NCBI GenBank assembly: GCA_020353055.1
Contig: CP070686.1
Location: 2,361,424 to 2,399,709, forward strand
From: Caldifarciminota bacterium
Lineage (GTDB): Bacteria > Hydrothermota > Tepidihabitantia > SM23-42
Reading direction: 5' to 3'
DNA length: 38,286 nt
Part shown: in pieces, positions 3,209 through 21,882 of the stretch
Numbering within the stretch: the first letter of the stretch is position 1
Layout: each line of letters opens with the position of its first letter
Position numbers and translations under genes: made by a program
The notes under the pieces: model-generated
What the model was told of the DNA's origin: nothing
Databases searched by the model: none
What the model saw: only the letters and a program-made list of their open reading frames with translations

Positions 3209-6200
3209 ATGATGAATACTGTTGATTTTTCTAAACGCAAGTCAAGCTTCACCATGCCTCACTTGCTAGAAGTTCAACATGAGTCTTATGATCAATTCAT
3301 GACAAAAACGATTAAGGATATATTTGGTCATGAATTTCCAGTGTCTGATATTCACAACCGCTATCAACTGCTTTATAATTCACACCGTTTCGGCACAGAG
3401 AAGTATTCGGCAAATGAGGCAATTGATAAGGGGGCAACCTATGGTATCCCCCTGAAAGTAAGCTTCAGACTGGTCAGCAAGGAAGACGATGGAGAACTAC
3501 ACGACATCACTGAACAGGAAATATATCTGTGCGACCTGCCCTTGATGACCGAACGTGGTACATTTGTCATCAACGGAGTCGAAAGGGTCGTGGTGAACCA
3601 GATACACCGCTCACCGGGTGTCTACTTCAGCGAAAATAACAATGCGTTTTCGGCCATGGTTATACCCTACCGTGGACAGTGGGTCGAGTTCCTCGTCGAC
3701 CATGCACATACGCTTTATGCGATCCTTGACCGGCGCAAGAAACTCGTAGGAACTATGTTCCTGCGTAGTCTTGGGTTTGAAACGAACGAAGAGATTATCA
3801 GACAGTTCTTTCCGGTCAAAACAGTCGACTTGAAAAATGCTGAAAACTATTTCACCGCTGAAGAAATAACCGAAGGAGAAAACACGATTCTCCCCGCCGG
3901 CGAATTACTCGATGCACCTAACATCGAATTCCTCGTCCACAAGGAAGTGAAGAAAGTCGCGATAATCGACTCGCATCACCCTGGCGTCACCATACTCACC
4001 AATACACTGAAGAAGGACCGGACCCACTCCAAAGAAGAGGCTGCAAAAAAAATCTATACACTACTGCGCTCGATGGCCCCGCCCACGCTCGACATAGCCA
4101 TGTCTTATATCAATAATATTCTATTCGATCTGGGTCACTTTGATCTGGGTGACGTCGGACGGTTCAAGCTAAACATGCGCCTTGGTATTACCGAACGTTC
4201 GAAGAAACACGATTTCGCAATCGAAGATCTTCTTGAAATATTCCGCCGGTTATTCCAATTAGTAGCCAAGGAACTTGAACCAGATGATATCGACCACCTT
4301 GGAAATCGTCGGGTGCGCCGTGTTGGCGAGTTGCTCGGAGAACAATTCAGGTTGGCGATAAAGCAACTGAAACAGAACATCAAAGAACGAGCTTCATTAA
4401 TGGATGAATCTGGACTTTCGCCGCAGGATCTGATCAATCCACGGCTTGTGTCAAATATAATTAACAAATTCTTCACGACATCACAGCTCTCTCAATTCAT
4501 GGAACAGACAAATCCTCTGTCAGAAATGACTCACAAACGACGTATTTCATCGCTCGGTCTTGGCGGGTTAACAAGACAGACGGCAGGATTCGAAGTCCGT
4601 GATGTTCACTATTCACATTATTCCAGGATATGTCCGATCGAGACACCGGAGGGGCCAAATATCGGTTTGATATCGAGTCTGGCTAGTTTTGCCAAAATCG
4701 ATAAATACGGATTCATCCTTGCGCCTTACTGGGTAGTCAAGAATTGTCGTGTGACCGATGAAGTCATGTATCTCAGAGCCGACGAAGAAGACAAATATAC
4801 AATTGCCCAGGCAAACACGCCAGTTGACGACAAGGGTAAGATCATAACCGATCAGGTTCTTTGCCGTCGCCGGGATGATTTTCCGCTGGTGGCTCCGAGC
4901 GAAGTGCATCTGATGGACGTATCACCAGAACAAGTATTCAGTCCCACCACGTCGCTTATTCCTTTTCTGGAGCACGATGATGCTGACCGGGCTCTCATGG
5001 GTTCCAATATGCAGAGACAAGCCGTACCATTGATCGACCCGGATATCCCGTACGTAGGCACTGGAATGGAAGACCGTATCGCAAAGAACTCAGGAATACT
5101 GTTGCTTGCCGAAGAGGATGGAAGAGTTGACTACGCTGACGCTTCAAGGATCGTCATTGAAACGAACCGTAAGGCAAAGAAACGTTATCACCTGTCAAAA
5201 TTCGTGCGGTCAAATCAGAACACCTGCATACATCAGAGACCGCTCGTCGCGGTTGGGCAGAAAGTCAAGAAGAATGACGTACTGGCCGACGGCTACGCAA
5301 CGAAAGACGGCGTTCTCGCCCTGGGGAAAAACGTCCTGGTGGCATTTATGCCTTTCCTCGGCTACAATTTTGAGGATGCCGTTGTTGTCAGCGAAAGACT
5401 TGTACGCGATGACACTTTTTCGTCAATACATATCATAGAGTGTACCTGCGAAGTCAGAGAAACCAAATTGGGTCCTGAGGAAGTAACCCGAGACATACCA
5501 GGATTGTCAGATTTCCTACTGAAGGACCTGGATGAATTTGGCATTGTTCGCGCGGGAGCCGAGGTAGGACCCGACGATATCATCGTCGGCAAAATAACTC
5601 CAAAAGGTGAAACCGAACTGACTCCTGAAGAAAGGCTGATGCGGGCAGTTTTTGCGGAAAAAGCCACTAACGTACGCGACACGTCACTTAGAATCGAACC
5701 AGGTGTCGAAGGCGTCGTCATCGATCGAAAGATCCTTACGCGCAAGACCACTGACCCTCTTGCCAAGAATGTCGAAGAAGAACGCCGGCACAAGATCCAG
5801 CAGGAATTTTCTGCAATGCAGCAGGAAATCCTTACCACCAGAAACAACCTCCTGAAGAGTAGGTTGATCGGCAAAACCGCAGCCTCATCGATTCGGAATG
5901 AAAAAGGTAAAATCATCCTGACCAAGGGAAGAGCATTTGAAGAAAGCTTCTTTGAAGATCTGACAGTAACCAAGATAGAAGCCGACAACAAATTCGTGAC
6001 AAATAACAAGCTGAACGAAGAAATCACGACTATCGCGAAGGAGAGCGAAGAGAGACTGCTTCAAATCGTGGCGGATAAGAAGAACGAAGAAGATAAACTG
6101 TTGAAGGGTGACGAACTGCCGCACGGTGTATTGAAAATTATCAAGGTCTTCATTGCACAAAAGAGAAGAATCGCGGTCGGTGACAAGATGGCGGGACGTC

Positions 6201-13764: not shown

Positions 13765-13866
13765 TGTCTACAAATCATATGCACGTATCAAACCTGAATG
13801 TATGGGGTACATATATATGAGCAACACAGTATTCTCACTGAACAACACACGGGGTTCCATCTTAAG

Positions 13867-15117
13867 ATGATAATACCCATACCTTACGGAACTACAAACC
13901 TTAAAATAGAAGCAGATGAGAAATACATACTCGACGTGATAAGCCCGAGGGAATGCGGCTCGGGGAATAACGAGAAAATCCTGAAGAACGCCGTCGATCA
14001 TCCACTGGGCGATGAATCACTCAGCGATTTTCTGAAAGATATAGGCAGGGTGAACGTTGTAGTAAATGACGCTGCGAGACCGACCAGGACCGCAGCGGTC
14101 ATCTCTATCATCAGTGATCTAATCAGGGATCAGGATACCCATTTCGTAGTCGCTACAGGCGCCCACCGCTCACCTGACGAATTTGAACTCATGGATATTT
14201 TCGGTAATCACTACGACCGATACAAAGACAGAATTACTATTCATGACTCAAGAAATGACAGTACACACTACTATCTGGGGCGAACCAGACACGGCAATGA
14301 GATGTGGTTGAACAACAAAACAGCAAAACAAGATAGGATCCTGGTTATAGGATCTATTGAGCCGCACTATTTTGCCGGCTATACCGGAGACAGAAAGGCG
14401 CTATTGCCAGGAATTGCCGCCAACCGCACGATTGAACAAAATCACAGCCTGGCGTTGCATGCTAACGCAAGGCCTCTAAAACTCGACGGCAATCCAGTCC
14501 ACGAGGAAATGATCGATTGTGCGTCGGCTCTCGGCAGGAAAAGGATATATTCAATCCAGATGATCATGGACAAGCATCAAAATATTTGCAAGGCATACAC
14601 TGGGCCCATCATCAGAACACTCGAAACGGCCACCGATGACGCCCGGCACATCTTTTCTGCGCGGATCATCAGAAAAGCAGACATCGTTGTAACCGTTGCC
14701 CAGCGCCCCTTTGACATCAACTTGTACCAAACGCTCAAATCTATCGAACATGGACGCCTTGCCCTCAACGAAGGGGGCATCCTGATCTTTGTTTCGCCAT
14801 GTACGGAAGGCCTGGGTCCGGAGAGCTTCGCCAGGCTATTTGAAAATGAAGATGCTATTCAGAACGCAGCCAAGAAGGCTAGATCACGATATAGTCTCGG
14901 TGACCACAATGCGTACAATCTCAAGACGCTTCGCGAATACGGCGAAATATGGGCCGTGACTGAGATCGCCGAGCCGAACTTGGCGGTCGCCGGCATTTGT
15001 AGATTCGACTCGTTGCAGGTGGCAGTCAACCAAGCGATCCGAGAAAAGGAAAAAATACATAGTCTTCTTTTCCTGACAAACGGAAGTCTAACCGTCCCCG
15101 AAATCAACCGATATTGA
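13867..15117 (+). CDS. larA: LarA-family nickel-pincer 2-hydroxyacid racemase/epimerase homologue 1
   Basis: A 416-residue LarA homologue. The start is set at ATG 13867, where the protein begins MIIPIPYG like its paralogue. The open frame extends to 13798, but those 23 residues look untypical. All catalytic positions known from Lactiplantibacillus LarA can be lined up: D68 and R71 (DAARPT), H100 (GAHR), H167 (PHYFAGYTG), K177 (DRKALLPG), H193 (EQNHS), Q288 and K291 (YQTLK). In LarA these bind the nickel-pincer (NPN) cofactor and the substrate carboxylate. The glycine usual before RK is Asp here (TGDRK). The superfamily includes racemases of lactate, malate and other 2-hydroxy acids; the substrate cannot be assigned. 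The LarB, LarC and LarE cofactor genes are not in the window. Confidence 0.88.
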   Translation: MIIPIPYGTTNLKIEADEKYILDVISPRECGSGNNEKILKNAVDHPLGDESLSDFLKDIGRVNVVVNDAARPTRTAAVISIISDLIRDQDTHFVVATGAHRSPDEFELMDIFGNHYDRYKDRITIHDSRNDSTHYYLGRTRHGNEMWLNNKTAKQDRILVIGSIEPHYFAGYTGDRKALLPGIAANRTIEQNHSLALHANARPLKLDGNPVHEEMIDCASALGRKRIYSIQMIMDKHQNICKAYTGPIIRTLETATDDARHIFSARIIRKADIVVTVAQRPFDINLYQTLKSIEHGRLALNEGGILIFVSPCTEGLGPESFARLFENEDAIQNAAKKARSRYSLGDHNAYNLKTLREYGEIWAVTEIAEPNLAVAGICRFDSLQVAVNQAIREKEKIHSLLFLTNGSLTVPEINRY

Positions 15118-15293: not shown

Positions 15294-16217
15294 ATGAAAA
15301 AGGTAAGCATTATCGGTGCAGGTAATGTCGGCGCAAACGCCGCCTTCTACATCGGCGAAAAGAACTTCGCTGACGTCATGCTGGTCGACGTCGTGGAAGG
15401 TCGGGCAAAAGGTAAAGCTCTGGACCTGATGGAGGCAGCGCCAGTCAGATATTATGACGCCAGAATCGAAGGAACTGACGACATCGCGGACATCGCCGGC
15501 TCGGAAGTCGTGGTCATTACGGCAGGGCATGTGCGAAAACCGCAGATGTCCCGACTCGACCTGCTTGAAACAAACGCTAAAGTGATAGATCCTATCATTC
15601 CTCAGATCAAACAACATGCGCCCGAGGCCACAATCATCAATATTACAGAACCGGTCGATGCCCTAACGTGCTATATCTGGAAGAAAGGCAAATTCGACCC
15701 CAAAAAGGTAGTCGGCATGACAGGAGTACTGGACACGACGAGATTCCGCGAATTCATCTCCAAGGAGTTACAGGTATCCACCGCAAACACCACCGCCGTA
15801 GTCATCGGCGGACATCACGATTTTATGGTGATCATCCCAAGGTATGCCAGTGTCGAAGGAATCCCGATTACACAGTTATTACCTCAGGAAAAGATCGACA
15901 ACCTCATTAAACGGACCAGAGCCGCAGGTAGTGAGATTCTTTCGTACCTGAAGACCGCGACGGCGCATTACGCACCGGCAGCTGCCCTCGCTGAAATCGT
16001 CGAAGCCATCATCAAGGATTCGAAACGCATGCTCTGTGTTTCCGCATGTTTGCAGGGCGAGTATGACGTGAAAGATCTATGTCTGGGTGTACCGGCAATT
16101 ATCGGCGCAAAAGGCGTGGAAAAGGTCGTAGAACTTCAGCTAACCATCGAGGAACGTCAACAATTCGAAGAATCGGTTACGGTCATAAAGAACGCAGTGG
16201 ACACACTGGAAATCTAA
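15294..16217 (+). CDS. Malate/lactate dehydrogenase-family paralogue with altered active site
   Basis: A 307-residue LDH/MDH-fold protein with a Rossmann GAGNVG (residues 8-13) and Asp32 for NAD. It keeps the substrate Args R81 and R87, the catalytic relay D147/R150 (LDTTRF) and His174. However, the almost invariant Asn of the VTNPxD motif is Glu119 (ITEPVD). Gly84 of the RxPGMSR loop is Gln (RKPQMSR), and the GGHGDSMVP block reads GGHHDFMVI. Its neighbour at 16233 has the canonical residues at each position, and the two align without gaps up to at least residue 190. It is preceded by GGAGGA. It may use another 2-hydroxy acid, form a heteromer with its neighbour, or be inactive. Confidence 0.85.
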   Translation: MKKVSIIGAGNVGANAAFYIGEKNFADVMLVDVVEGRAKGKALDLMEAAPVRYYDARIEGTDDIADIAGSEVVVITAGHVRKPQMSRLDLLETNAKVIDPIIPQIKQHAPEATIINITEPVDALTCYIWKKGKFDPKKVVGMTGVLDTTRFREFISKELQVSTANTTAVVIGGHHDFMVIIPRYASVEGIPITQLLPQEKIDNLIKRTRAAGSEILSYLKTATAHYAPAAALAEIVEAIIKDSKRMLCVSACLQGEYDVKDLCLGVPAIIGAKGVEKVVELQLTIEERQQFEESVTVIKNAVDTLEI

Positions 16218-16232
16218 GAGGAGGTAATAACA

Positions 16233-17168
16233 ATGAAAAAGGTCACTATTGTGGGCGCAGGAAACGTCGGAAGTTCTGTGGCTCTCTACTTAGCTGAACA
16301 CAAAATTGCGGATATCTACCTCGTCGATGTAGTCGAAGGTCTTCCCGAAGGAAAAGCACTCGATGCCGAAGAAGCCGCACCAATACGACGTTACGATGTC
16401 GAACTCAGAGGCTGCACAGATTTCTCGTGTATGGTCGACTCAGATATAGTGGTTATTACTGCCGGCATCGCAAGACGGCCGGGAATGTCCCGCGATGATT
16501 TGCTGAATACCAATGCCAAAATCATTAAATCCGTATCTGAGAAGGTCGCGGAATATGCACCGAATTCAATAATCATCATGGTTACCAATCCGCTTGATGT
16601 CATGGCCTATCTGGCATTGAAGACGACCGGCTTTGCACTGAAGAAAGTTGTTGGAATGGCCGGAATCCTTGATTCCATCAGATTCAGGTATTTCGTTTCT
16701 CAGAAATTCGGAGTATCAGTCATCGATACCACGGCAATGGTCCTTGGTGGTCACGGTGATTCCATGGTTCCCTTACCAAGATATTCAACCATTGCAGGCG
16801 TTCCCATAACAGAATTGATGCCCAAAGACGATATCGATAAGATAATCGAGAGAACGCGTAAAGGCGGTGCGGAAATCGTTGGCTACCTCAAAACGGGTAG
16901 TGCCTACTACGCCCCGGCGGCTGCAGTCGCGAAGATGGTTGAATGCATTGTCAGAGACAAACGCCGCATCCTGCCATGCTCTGCATATTTGAGGGGCGAG
17001 TACGGTATCGACGGACTCTTCGTCGGCGTACCGGTGATGTTGGGCAAGAACGGCGTGGAAAAAATCATCGAACTCGAACTCATTCCCGAAGAACGTGAGG
17101 CCTTACATACATCTGCCTCAGCCGTCAAGACAGTGATAGAAAAATTGGAGAATCTCGGAATCTTTTAA
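16233..17168 (+). CDS. mdh: Malate dehydrogenase (NAD-dependent, LDH-like type)
   Basis: A 311-residue LDH-like malate dehydrogenase. It has GAGNVG at 8-13 and Asp32 for NAD preference. The mobile loop IARRPGMSRDDLL has Arg81 at the specificity position and Arg87. The rest of the site is Asn119 (VTNPLD), Asp147 and Arg150 (LDSIRF), and His174 (GGHGDSMVP). The Arg at the specificity site favours malate over lactate. The reaction is L-malate with NAD to oxaloacetate in the cytosol. It starts 15 bases after the altered paralogue with AGGAGG ahead of the ATG, so the two are co-expressed. It lies between two LarA homologues. Confidence 0.9.
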   Translation: MKKVTIVGAGNVGSSVALYLAEHKIADIYLVDVVEGLPEGKALDAEEAAPIRRYDVELRGCTDFSCMVDSDIVVITAGIARRPGMSRDDLLNTNAKIIKSVSEKVAEYAPNSIIIMVTNPLDVMAYLALKTTGFALKKVVGMAGILDSIRFRYFVSQKFGVSVIDTTAMVLGGHGDSMVPLPRYSTIAGVPITELMPKDDIDKIIERTRKGGAEIVGYLKTGSAYYAPAAAVAKMVECIVRDKRRILPCSAYLRGEYGIDGLFVGVPVMLGKNGVEKIIELELIPEEREALHTSASAVKTVIEKLENLGIF

Positions 17169-17198: not shown

Positions 17199-18581
17199 AT
17201 GAAACTGAAAGTAGGAATACCATACGGCAGAGAGACGATCAATATTCAGGTCGAAGAGCAGAATATTGGCGAGATAGTACTGCCCAATGAAGTGAAAATC
17301 GCAGATGAAGTAGATACCCTTCAGCAAGCTCTGGCCCAACCCATAGCGTCCAAAAGGTTTGACGAATTCATCAAGGACGCCAAAGATATCCTGTTTCTAA
17401 TCAATGACGCAACAAGACCGACGCCTACTGCGAAAGTCCTCAAGATTCTGTATCCAATGATACAGGACAAGAACACAAAATTCCTGATAGCCACAGGTAT
17501 GCATCGAGCACCGACCGAAGACGAATACGTGGAAATATTCGGTGAACTCTATGAAACGCTCAAGGATAGAATCTTTGCTCATGACTCCAAAAAAGATGAA
17601 GATATGATTCATCTGGGCACATCGAAAAACGGTACGGAAATGTACGTGAACAAAATGGCAGTCGATGCGCACAAGATTGTAATCATTGGGTCTGTTGAAC
17701 CGCACTATTTTGCCGGCTACACCGGAGGTAGAAAATCATTCCTCCCTGGTATCGCTGCTTACAGCACCATCGAACAAAATCACAAACTTGCATTGAAGGC
17801 AAGTGCGAGGGCACTAAGTCTCGAAGGAAACCCCGTGCACGAGGATATGGAAGATGCAATCCTGACGATCAAGGAAAAAGAAGTTTTTTCTATCATGACA
17901 GTGCTGGACCGTAACGAACGAATTTATGCTGCCACTGCAGGGGACATCACCGAATCGCTGAAAGCCGCCATAGACCGGGCGCACAGCGTCTTTTCGGTCG
18001 AAATAAAGGAGAAAGCAGATATCGTCGTGGCGGTCGCCCCCTACCCTATGGACATTGACTTGTATCAATCGCAAAAGGCGTTGGATAACGGTAAGTTCGC
18101 CCTCAACGACAATGGCATTCTGATACTTGTTTCAAAATGCCGTATGGGTGTAGGAAGCGACACCTTCATCAAGTTGCTGAGCAGTTGCCGTTCGCCTCAG
18201 GAGACATTGGATAAGATAGACAAGGAATTCAAATTAGGATATCACAAAGCAGCCAAGATGGCCGAGATCGCCCGCTGGGCTCAGATGTGGGCGGTGACAA
18301 GCCTCGACGGAGACATGCTGAGAAGCGTTTTCATAAGACCGTTTCATACATTGCAGAAAGCAATTGATACTGCAATCGCCGAGAAGGGTGAAGAGAAAAT
18401 TCTGTTCTTAATGAATGCCAGTCTGACCGTACCCAAACTCAGAAAACGCCTCGTGTATAGACCCAAGAAGTTCATCTATGCTAGCAGATGGGAGAAAGGA
18501 ATGCCTGCTGCAAGGTATAGAGAATCAGAGATTGAAGAAGCGATAGAAGACGCTTACTATCACATATACTCAGAAATGTGA
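17199..18581 (+). CDS. larA: LarA-family nickel-pincer 2-hydroxyacid racemase/epimerase homologue 2
   Basis: A 460-residue LarA homologue that keeps all catalytic positions: D70 and R73 (NDATRPT), H102 (GMHR), H169 (PHYFAGYTGG), K179 (GRKSFLPG), H195 (EQNHK), Q290 and K293 (YQSQK). It has the normal Gly before RK, unlike paralogue 1. It is longer than typical LarA (about 420-430) by a C-terminal extension of some 45 residues after VPKLRK, rich in Arg, Tyr and Glu. It begins 30 bases after mdh without a recognisable ribosome binding site or promoter, so it is probably read from the dehydrogenase transcript. Racemisation of a 2-hydroxy acid is the expected activity; the substrate is unknown. 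Confidence 0.88.
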   Translation: MKLKVGIPYGRETINIQVEEQNIGEIVLPNEVKIADEVDTLQQALAQPIASKRFDEFIKDAKDILFLINDATRPTPTAKVLKILYPMIQDKNTKFLIATGMHRAPTEDEYVEIFGELYETLKDRIFAHDSKKDEDMIHLGTSKNGTEMYVNKMAVDAHKIVIIGSVEPHYFAGYTGGRKSFLPGIAAYSTIEQNHKLALKASARALSLEGNPVHEDMEDAILTIKEKEVFSIMTVLDRNERIYAATAGDITESLKAAIDRAHSVFSVEIKEKADIVVAVAPYPMDIDLYQSQKALDNGKFALNDNGILILVSKCRMGVGSDTFIKLLSSCRSPQETLDKIDKEFKLGYHKAAKMAEIARWAQMWAVTSLDGDMLRSVFIRPFHTLQKAIDTAIAEKGEEKILFLMNASLTVPKLRKRLVYRPKKFIYASRWEKGMPAARYRESEIEEAIEDAYYHIYSEM

Positions 18582-18796: not shown

Positions 18797-19231
18797 ATGG
18801 AGATCCAGGGATACAATGTACCTGAGGATTTATATTATCACGATGAGAACACCTGGGTAAGGATGGAAGAAGATGGTTCAGCGAGAGTGGGCATGGATGA
18901 TTTCTACCAGAAACAAGCCGGCGACACGACTTATGTTGATTTGCCTTTTGAGGGTGACTCTGTGAGTCAGGGTGAAACCTGTGGTAAGATCCAATCCTCA
19001 AAATGGGTCGGTAAATTCGTCTCGCCGATTTCTGGCGAAATCGTCGAGGTCAACAGTGAGCTGGAGAATGATTGTCGCTTGATCAATAAGGATCCTTATG
19101 GCGGTGGATGGATCATGCGAGTAAAGCCTTCTAATCTGGACGAAGAATTGAAAAATCTCGCCCACGGAGCGGATGCGTTAGAGAAATTCATCCAGAACCA
19201 TGTTGATAAAGCAAGCAAAGGCGGTAATTAG
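18797..19231 (+). CDS. GcvH-like lipoyl-carrier protein
   Basis: A 144-residue protein with the GcvH fold pattern: TWVRMEEDGSARVGMDDF, VDLPFEGDSVSQGE, then the lipoyl hairpin and SPISGEIVEVNSEL. The lipoyl-lysine is Lys69 in QSSKWVGK. In ordinary GcvH this motif is ESVKAxSD, so the acidic residues on both sides are replaced by Gln65-Ser and Lys73. GcvH shuttles aminomethyl groups in glycine cleavage; no gcvT, gcvP or lipoamide dehydrogenase is in the window. Related lipoate-binding proteins serve sulfur-oxidising Hdr-like complexes. The next gene carries Hdr-type CCG motifs, so a role as a dithiol carrier in 2-hydroxy-acid oxidation is proposed. It has a good ribosome binding site (AAAGGAGG) and its own promoter. 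Confidence 0.8.
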   Translation: MEIQGYNVPEDLYYHDENTWVRMEEDGSARVGMDDFYQKQAGDTTYVDLPFEGDSVSQGETCGKIQSSKWVGKFVSPISGEIVEVNSELENDCRLINKDPYGGGWIMRVKPSNLDEELKNLAHGADALEKFIQNHVDKASKGGN

Positions 19232-19383: not shown

Positions 19384-21882
19384 ATGCCGATAAAGAAGGA
19401 AATAATCAATGAATTGCGTGAAATCGTTGGCGCCGATTATTGCAGAGCGAACAATGCTGAATTGTACGTGTATGCTTTTGACAGCAGTATTCACCGGAAA
19501 AAACCCGATGTAGTAGTTCAGCCAACGAAAACGGAGCAAGTTCAGAAAATCGTACTCCTTGCGAATAAACATAAGATCCCGGTCGTACCGCGTGGTGCCG
19601 GCTCTGGGCTTTGTGGAATGGCAGTGCCGATCGATGGAGGTATCGTCGTCGACCTGCAGAGGATGAACCGCATAGTAGATATGCGGATCGGGGACCTCTA
19701 CTGTGTTGTCGAACCCGGTGTTGTTTACAACGACTTCATCGCCGCCCTCGCGCCGTACAAGTATTTCATACCAGGACCAGCCTCGGGGGAAGTCGCAACA
19801 CTGGGTGGCATGATCGCGCTCAACGCTTCCGGCGGAAAGGCAGTCAAGTACGGTGCGACGCGGGACTATGTTATTGGCATGGAATTCGTCACTCCAACCG
19901 GTGACATCGTGCGAGCCGGTGCAAATACTATGAAGCACTCAAGCGGATATCAGTTCGAGAAACTACTGGTTGGATCAGAAGGAACGCTCGGTATCATAAC
20001 AGAAGCGAACATCCGGATTGTACCTAAACCAGAAAAGAGAGCCGCGTGCGTAGCTTCCTTCGACGATCTGGAAAAAGCCGGCCAAGCGGTCGCGGACATC
20101 ATTGCTAAACCACTCATCCCGTCGCAGCTTGAAATCATGTCGCGAGCCTGCATTCAAGCAGTCAACAAAGCAACCAACATGGGGCTTCCAGAAGTCGCTG
20201 GGATGCTCTTGATCGAGCTGGATGGTGCTCCAGAGGTTGTAAAACGTGATGTTGAAATCGTCGGAGAGATATGCAAAAAAGCGGGTGCGGTGTCGGTTGA
20301 ATCCACTGAAGACGAAAAACGCATTGTCGAACTCTGGAAAGCAAGAAAGCAAATGATACCGTCACTCAGTATTCTCAAAGAACATTACGCCACAACGATG
20401 CTTGCTGATGACATGGCTGTCCCGCCCTCACAAATTCCAAAAGCAGTTGCCGGGATCTGGGATATATCGGAAAAATACGACATAATCATTCCTCCGTACG
20501 GCCACTCAGGGGACGGTAATCTTCACACAAAAGTACTGATGATGCCGGCTAATCCAGAACACTGGAAACAGGCACAGAAAGCAGTGACTGAAATATATGA
20601 ATTGATACATGCCCTCGGCGGAACAACGACGGGTGAACACGGCATCGGCATAACCAAAGCACCAGACTTCTACCGCGAACGAAAAACTATGATCCCGTTG
20701 ATGCAGACCCTGAAAAAGGCATTCGACCCAAACAATATTATGAACCCTCATAAACTCGACCAGTGGACAGACGATTTCGTGCACGAACTGCGTTACCCGA
20801 CAGATCAGAACAGAAAACTCGAAGGGCACCTGGCCAAGTGGGAAGAAGAGATGATGACCTGTACGATGTGCGGGTACTGCAAGAACGTATGCCCAACGTT
20901 TGTGGATCTACTGTGGGATCCGCCGTCGAGTCGCGGAAGAGTCATCATGTCATACGGCATGCTCGAGAAGGAATTAGAGCCTGACGATTCTGTCGTTAGC
21001 GCTATATATCAATGTACACTCTGTCGCGATTGCAACCGCCGCTGTCCCTCAAAGGTCAAAGTTCCTGACATCGTTCGTGCCGCGCGCGCCGACCTCGTTG
21101 AAGCTGGATTTGCATACGACAGCCACAAGGCATTCATCGACAATATCAAAAAAACCGGAAACATCTTCGCCGATACTGAAGTAATGGCTCCGCTGCGCGA
21201 CGGCGAAACACCCGTATTTGTGGGTTGTCAATTTCTTGCTCGCCCGAACCAGACAAAGATGTATTTGAAGCTCTTTGAGAAACTCGGAATGAAACCAAAA
21301 GTGGTGAAGGAAGTATGTTGTGGCTATCCCATGGAAGCACTCGGTTTTGCCAAAGATTTTGAAGAACACCAGATGAAATTCAAAGAATTGTTTCCTTTTG
21401 ATACGGCGATAACCCTCTGCCCCACTTGTACGGTTTATCTGAACGAAGCCTACAAAATAAAAGCAAAACACGCGATGCAGGTAATAGCTGAAAAACTACC
21501 GGATGCGAACTTGAAGAAACTGAGCGGCAAAGTAACGTATCACGATCCTTGTGACCTTTCCCGCGGTGCCAAGGTAACCAAAGAACCCAGAGAAATAATC
21601 AACCAGCTCGGCCTCGAACTCGTTGAGATGAAATTCAAGGACAACACTTCAAGATGCTGTGGCGGTGGCGGCGGAATACTTGTCTCGGACAATCCACTAT
21701 CAACCAGGATCGCATCGAACCGTATAAAAGAAGCGCAGAAGACCAAAGCCGACACCATTGTAACTGCATGTGCAACTTGCGAACAAGTGCTCAAGACTGC
21801 GGCAACCGCAGCAGCAGATAAGGGTGACGGAAAGATCAACGTCATGGGACTACAGCAGATGATATGGAAAGCACTGGCGTAG
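19384..21882 (+). CDS. Fused FAD / iron-sulfur 2-hydroxyacid oxidase (GlcD-GlcF type)
   Basis: An 832-residue fusion. Residues 1-460 form a GlcD-like flavoprotein: the FAD-binding loop PRGAGSGLCG near 69-78, GPASGEVATLGG, VGSEGTLGI, HSGDGNLH near 374, and GEHGIG near 418. Residues 490-560 hold two 4Fe-4S motifs (C493/496/499/503 and C544/547/550/554). The C-terminal part has two complete CCG motifs: C615, C645-C646, C679, C682, and C723, C758-C759, C796, C799. Such enzymes oxidise D-lactate, glycolate or related 2-hydroxy acids; the electron acceptor varies. No membrane segment is visible. It follows the lipoyl gene after 152 bases and ends at a strong terminator. The ribosome binding site AAGGGGG is clear. 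Confidence 0.88.
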   Translation: MPIKKEIINELREIVGADYCRANNAELYVYAFDSSIHRKKPDVVVQPTKTEQVQKIVLLANKHKIPVVPRGAGSGLCGMAVPIDGGIVVDLQRMNRIVDMRIGDLYCVVEPGVVYNDFIAALAPYKYFIPGPASGEVATLGGMIALNASGGKAVKYGATRDYVIGMEFVTPTGDIVRAGANTMKHSSGYQFEKLLVGSEGTLGIITEANIRIVPKPEKRAACVASFDDLEKAGQAVADIIAKPLIPSQLEIMSRACIQAVNKATNMGLPEVAGMLLIELDGAPEVVKRDVEIVGEICKKAGAVSVESTEDEKRIVELWKARKQMIPSLSILKEHYATTMLADDMAVPPSQIPKAVAGIWDISEKYDIIIPPYGHSGDGNLHTKVLMMPANPEHWKQAQKAVTEIYELIHALGGTTTGEHGIGITKAPDFYRERKTMIPLMQTLKKAFDPNNIMNPHKLDQWTDDFVHELRYPTDQNRKLEGHLAKWEEEMMTCTMCGYCKNVCPTFVDLLWDPPSSRGRVIMSYGMLEKELEPDDSVVSAIYQCTLCRDCNRRCPSKVKVPDIVRAARADLVEAGFAYDSHKAFIDNIKKTGNIFADTEVMAPLRDGETPVFVGCQFLARPNQTKMYLKLFEKLGMKPKVVKEVCCGYPMEALGFAKDFEEHQMKFKELFPFDTAITLCPTCTVYLNEAYKIKAKHAMQVIAEKLPDANLKKLSGKVTYHDPCDLSRGAKVTKEPREIINQLGLELVEMKFKDNTSRCCGGGGGILVSDNPLSTRIASNRIKEAQKTKADTIVTACATCEQVLKTAATAAADKGDGKINVMGLQQMIWKALA

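Follow-up and report, generated by a model that had tools for sequence, protein, structure and literature searches.

Candidate division WOR-3 contains bacteria in which a canonical malate dehydrogenase (MDH) gene directly follows a gene for an MDH paralogue with an altered active site, raising the question of which function the latter fulfils. The pair was recognised in a window (G000:C1:2361424-2399709), i.e., the whole stretch of 38,286 nucleotides that was analysed, of a 2.69 Mb genome comprising a single contig. The initial annotation of this DNA attributed the alterations to selection for a new substrate or for a regulatory/heteromeric role rather than to decay; the coordinates, reading frame and residues that it gave proved correct. 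The product of the first ORF is termed MdhE here, with residues numbered from its own Met (Table 1).

Table 1. Features of the mdhE-mdh locus, positions referring to the window
Feature	Position	Strand	Description
larA1	13798..15117	+	Paralogue of the LarA family of Ni-dependent racemases; evolves fast; missing from relative G005
mdhE	15294..16217	+	Glu-form malate dehydrogenase paralogue; 307 aa; Ldh_1_N/Ldh_1_C, AF2 model, PDB match 7aob
mdhE codons 52-54	15447..15455	+	R-x-Y signature in both pair members and in no solitary MDH; residue comparison
mdhE codon 119	15648..15650	+	Glu for otherwise invariant Asn (LDH Asn140); residue comparison
mdhE codon 175	15816..15818	+	His for Gly beside catalytic His174 (LDH 196); residue comparison
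mdhE/mdh gap	16218..16232	+	15 nt with AGGAGG ribosome-binding-site-like sequence, coupling both genes
mdh (partner)	16233..17168	+	Canonical malate dehydrogenase; 311 aa; all catalytic residues, R52/Y54; TIGR01763 438 bits
larA2	17199..18581	+	Member of the LarA family; closest NCBIfam model is LarAH6 malate racemase (385 bits; cut-off of 500 not reached)
gcvH-like	18797..19231	+	Lipoyl-carrier protein; conserved in WOR-3 operon
glcD(F)	19384..21882	+	GlcD-type FAD 2-hydroxyacid oxidoreductase fused to 4Fe-4S and CCG domains

Sequence and fold of MdhE

MdhE and its downstream partner (50 % identity) are the sole two Ldh_1 proteins of the whole genome. In the window, MdhE displays E119 (in ITEPVD), Q84 and GGHHDFMVI, the corresponding residues of the partner being N119, G84 and GGHGDSMVP. 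As read initially, MdhE retains the NAD site (GAGNVG, D32) as well as R81, R87, D147, R150 and H174, and with these the Asp168-His195 relay and the equivalents of Arg102, Arg109 and Arg171 (LDH numbering). Its domains and Rossmann/LDH fold assign MdhE to the LDH/MDH superfamily: (i) Pfam domains Ldh_1_N and Ldh_1_C both score above cut-off (123.6 and 102.9 bits), (ii) the AlphaFold2 model reaches pLDDT 87.5 and pTM 0.87, with lowest confidence in segment 215-224, and (iii) the best PDB matches of this model in Foldseek are type-3 MDHs (7aob, TM 0.94, 50 % identity). A 92 %-identical MdhE is encoded in a candidate division WOR-3 MAG.

With 368.9 bits (partner 438.3), MdhE exceeds the cut-off (351.85) of the equivalog model TIGR01763 (MalateDH_bact); therefore, this model does not separate MdhE from catalytic MDHs. 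The score would agree with MdhE being an ordinary MDH isozyme that tolerates Glu119. However, such an isozyme is very unlikely, since Asn119 lines the substrate (PMC4109310) and is invariant in 161 solitary MDHs and 27 partners, and since strict pairing with a canonical MDH (see below) speaks against a redundant isozyme.

PRK06223 and TIGR01763 both name MdhE 'malate dehydrogenase' despite the replaced invariant active-site residue. Since NCBIfam uses this name, MdhE is probably mis-annotated widely, and it may enter metabolic reconstructions as a second MDH.

Distribution and pairing

At least 29 bacterial genomes contain the Glu form, and their taxonomic labels place them in five phyla: WOR-3 (11), Desulfobacterota (11), the Krumholzibacteriota-containing phylum (5), Opitutia of the Verrucomicrobiota (1) and Rokubacteria (1), the last label to be treated cautiously as it refers to one 3.4-kb MAG contig. 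Canonical MDHs of other phyla emerged when 84,980 species genomes were scanned, and targeted searches then reached the 29 genomes; seven of the canonical MDHs matched outside WOR-3 are adjoined by a second, Glu-form ORF. These tandem Glu forms rule out an origin private to WOR-3. In the home phylum, MdhE is encoded in 11 of 147 genomes; seven of these belong to the genus of the window, three to further genera of its family and one to a different family. A change private to this contig, which the initial annotation had considered, or a sequencing error is ruled out by the occurrence of Glu119 in every MdhE-bearing relative. The Glu form is absent from 50 genomes of other phyla that possess solitary MDHs.

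The question posed initially, whether the Glu form always sits beside a normal mdh, can be affirmed for all 27 intact cases: each is directly followed, on its own strand, by an Asn-type MDH gene, and in 26 of them the two genes overlap or are at most 35 nt apart. Within WOR-3, the canonical gene lies directly 3' of mdhE in 10 of 11 genomes, the pair of the remaining one (G006, the 28th genome) being split between two contigs. The 29th genome was predicted from its partner alone (L180), which starts 54 bases from the end of a truncated contig. The preceding bases encode the C-terminus of an MdhE (...TQEKLVSRVKEKAS, followed by the stop codon), and L180 is therefore a partner rather than a solitary MDH. 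Co-occurrence of the two homologues is obligate (27 tandem pairs, one split pair and one contig-edge pair). In all seven non-WOR-3 genomes checked, the pair accounts for the only MDH family matches (E <= 1e-20). Two enzymes of a single pathway would, however, show such adjacency as well.

Residue signatures and altered pocket

Position 119 is Glu in 27 of 27 MdhE, versus Asn in 27 of 27 partners and 161 of 161 solitary MDHs, i.e., the replacement reported for the window is general. The other changes reported with it fared differently. At position 175, Gly is replaced in all 27 MdhE (His in 18, Thr in 8, Arg in 1). Position 84 varies between lineages (Q, H, E or G within WOR-3, mostly G elsewhere), as do F177 and I180; this variability excludes G84Q and, apart from position 175, the GGHHDFMVI stretch with its MVI end from the conserved signature. 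Among the canonical invariants, N119 and G175 are fully and P248 is mostly replaced in MdhE, and no others fully.

The NAD motif (G8, G10, G13) and D32 at the end of beta-2 are found in all MdhE covering that region, and D32, R81, R87, R150 and H174 are retained at >=95 %. The full Asp-His relay is intact in 24 of 27 MdhE, catalytic D147 (Asp168) being Ser in the other three (L056, L062 and L222). First-shell residues of MDH are Arg102, Arg109, Leu112, Asn140, Leu167, Asp168, Arg171, His195, Met199, Gly236, Gly237, Ile239, Val240, Ser245, Ala246 and Pro250 (PMC4109310). Positions 102, 109, 167, 171, 195 and 199 are unchanged in all MdhE examined, and 140 is Glu in all. The kept NAD motif together with the altered first shell points to a protein that would still bind NAD and a C4 dicarboxylate, while the C2 carbonyl oxygen would no longer be stabilised. 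On chemical grounds, a carboxylate at position 119 would favour a hydroxyl or ammonium group at C2.

The same pocket may be read as that of an active dehydrogenase with a new C2 substrate, e.g., an L-aspartate/iminosuccinate dehydrogenase. In favour of this reading, MdhE retains the NAD motif, the catalytic His and all three substrate arginines, with N119 turned into a carboxylate, and it is under strong purifying selection (see below). The complete relay in 24 of 27 members makes catalysis on another substrate possible, which counts against the two-subunit reading given below. In the aspartate version, the arginines would hold both carboxylates and Glu119 the amino group, while the partner MDH would supply or drain oxaloacetate. 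A new substrate is nevertheless unlikely: intact MdhE never occurs without a canonical MDH, which such an enzyme would not need, three MdhE have lost the catalytic Asp, and the contexts read showed no recognisable transaminase or nitrogen gene beside the pairs.

Column-by-column comparison of the groups revealed Arg52 and Tyr54, located just after helix 37-47, in all 27 MdhE, all 27 partners and the 28th partner L180, but in none of the 161 solitary MDHs. The first sample of solitary MDHs (n = 122) contained one carrier, L180, later reassigned as partner. A further 40 Desulfobacterota MDHs, picked blind to their state at these positions, were all solitary, all had Asn119 and none had R52 and Y54. 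A similar tendency is seen for an aromatic residue at position 19 and for Glu22. In Chloroflexus MDH, Glu25 is located at the dimer-dimer contact (PMC4250060). Arg52 and Tyr54 may be subunit-contact residues; their presence in both members could also reflect common ancestry of the two paralogues instead of an interface. Glu119 together with R52/Y54 suffices to find MdhE in any genome.

Evolution and selection

Values of dN/dS are 0.011-0.020 for MdhE and 0.005-0.021 for the partner; they were determined by YN00 for close pairs alone, others being saturated, and are approximate (dS 0.6-1.9). The high dN/dS that the initial annotation had associated with decay is hence not found, and relaxed selection is excluded. 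The one broken Glu form is a second, isolated copy in G072 (L225, about 4850-5770; G072:C11:40852-41765), which contains TEPVD and GGHHDYM, is frameshifted and has no MDH partner recorded on its contig. This copy would fit a decaying duplicate. In case of the paired gene, however, decay or a sequencing/assembly artefact has a negligible probability and is refuted by the occurrence in 29 genomes, open frames, invariant E119 and dN/dS of about 0.01-0.02. Ordinary isozyme, decay and artefact are accordingly disfavoured or excluded.

Phylogenetic analysis clusters the Glu forms on one side of a branch with 100/99 support, as the initial annotation had proposed to examine, even with codon 119 and columns 175-180 left out; partners (97/89) and solitary MDHs (99/95) are likewise separated. 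In a quick tree with LDH outgroups, which is prone to long-branch effects and has one outgroup row (L247) misplaced, unity of the Glu forms receives a support of only 39. The pairwise distances among MdhE parallel those among the partners (Mantel r 0.91, 27 pairs, 0 of 2000 permutations as high), although r partly reflects shared species history and the between-lineage correlation alone is 0.45. This parallel indicates that the two genes are passed on together, be it by inheritance or by transfer.

MdhE evolves about 1.8 times faster than its partner. This rate, the obligate pairing and the R52/Y54 common to both members would also suit a structural or assembly subunit, whose mixed tetramer with MDH stabilises or localises the latter (e.g., to fumarase, malic enzyme or Hdr-type complexes) while its pocket drifts without any ligand role. 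Such a subunit appears distinctly improbable, as E119, R81, R87, R150, H174 and the NAD residues do not vary between phyla, which a structural role alone would not require.

Genomic contexts of the pair

The WOR-3 operon has the order larA1-mdhE-mdh-larA2-gcvH-glcD(F), of which the mdhE-mdh-larA2 core is constant, while genes around it are lost or replaced; the context comprises LarAH6-like racemases and a GlcD-type oxidoreductase. Where read, the five related Desulfobacterota pairs are preceded by malic enzyme and followed by class I fumarase genes, and Hdr-type genes are encoded in the vicinity; in G432, the order is pair, fumarase beta subunit and HdrC/HdrB/HdrA-like genes. On the Rokubacteria contig the pair is followed by HdrC and HdrB, and in Desulfotignum citrate synthase and isocitrate dehydrogenase are encoded a few genes away. 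No telling neighbour was recognised at the Krumholzibacteriota and Opitutia loci. To these malate or C4-acid settings, an MDH subunit fits better than an enzyme for an unrelated substrate. The Hdr and GlcD/CCG neighbours prompted consideration of electron bifurcation by MdhE, which was set aside because neither MDH has a flavin or FeS domain and because neighbours differ between lineages.

Several further features of the WOR-3 operon were observed. Within the genus, LarA1 shares 54-64 % identity (dN/dS 0.14-0.18) compared to 78-94 % for LarA2, and larA1 is missing in G005 (L034); despite its fast evolution, LarA1 keeps motifs such as EPHYFAGYTG.RK. In three genomes (G001, G006 and G020; L031, L035 and L040), separate glcD and glcF genes (46-54 % identical) take the place of the fused GlcD-CCG gene, i.e., a displacement in place at the operon end. 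The GcvH-like protein beside the GlcD-FeS-CCG oxidoreductase is conserved in WOR-3 operons, and the genome of the window harbours another gcvH beside gcvP (G000:C1:721892-722248). Possibly, the GcvH-like lipoyl protein carries electrons for the 2-hydroxyacid oxidoreductase with the CCG domain.

Proposed two-subunit malate dehydrogenase

Of the two roles offered by the initial annotation, the regulatory/heteromeric one is favoured by the obligate pairing, the separate clade of the partners, the shared Arg52/Tyr54 and the loss of the catalytic Asp in three MdhE; a new substrate stays in the discussion as the main, though less likely, rival. We therefore propose, with a probability of roughly 0.6, that MdhE and the canonical MDH together constitute one enzyme of two obligate subunits, MdhE being the modified and probably sensory one.

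In the proposed hetero-oligomeric NAD-malate dehydrogenase, malate would be oxidised by the canonical subunit. MdhE has kept the fold of LDH/MDH proteins, the catalytic His, the NAD motif and the three arginines holding C4 dicarboxylates; with a carboxylate replacing Asn at position 119, which faces C2 of the substrate, and with the residue beside the catalytic His also changed, it should have little or no MDH activity. Its putative ligand would be a C4 dicarboxylate whose C2 carries a hydrogen-bond donor (malate or L-aspartate), bound together with NAD(H). The binding state may be relayed from MdhE to the catalytic subunit via dimer or dimer-dimer contacts, comparable to the gamma subunit of NAD-isocitrate dehydrogenase (NAD-IDH).

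More tentatively, and with odds somewhat below even, one may speculate that a single fixed Asn-to-Glu change made the MdhE pocket a sensor for amino- or hydroxy-C4-dicarboxylates (aspartate, malate), and thereby an allosteric switch at the malate/oxaloacetate node. To our knowledge, no MDH with such a dedicated allosteric regulatory subunit or switch has been known. Precedents for the two-subunit reading are the citrate-binding subunit of NAD-IDH (PMC5241874) and ligands at the MDH oligomer interface, which act on the active-site loop more than 30 A away (PMC8355244). If true, the branch point of malate and oxaloacetate would gain regulation or new chemistry through a conserved second subunit whose active site has been rebuilt and which occurs in several phyla, and several lineages of mostly anaerobic, uncultured bacteria would possess an allosteric malate/oxaloacetate switch.

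Comparison with known systems

Few enzymes have been studied as thoroughly as malate dehydrogenase, which is regarded as a homo-oligomer. A search confined to open-access literature yielded no description of a tandem, adjacent, heteromeric or paired MDH of this kind. In HicDH and in apicomplexan LDH, Asn140 is retained. Like MdhE, both are divergent members of the LDH/MDH superfamily whose pocket has changed (PMC4109310), but they change position 102 or the specificity loop, whereas MdhE shows the reverse, with 102, 109 and 171 kept and 140 changed.

The LDH-like tetrameric type 3 NAD-MDHs (PDB 7aob; 4cl3 of Chloroflexus aurantiacus) share with MdhE the fold (TM 0.92-0.95), the NAD motif, the equivalents of Arg102, Arg109, Arg171 and His195, and 42-50 % sequence identity. 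In contrast to them, every MdhE has Glu at Asn140, the Gly196 equivalent is replaced, Pro248 is mostly lost, the Asp168 equivalent is missing in three members, and MdhE is always paired with a canonical MDH.

The candidate for a system working alike is human IDH3 alpha/gamma (PMC5241874). Its fold family (decarboxylating IDH) is unrelated; yet, as proposed for MdhE and its partner, IDH3 combines homologous subunits in one NAD-dependent dehydrogenase of the TCA cycle, one of them having an altered active site that serves as allosteric ligand site.
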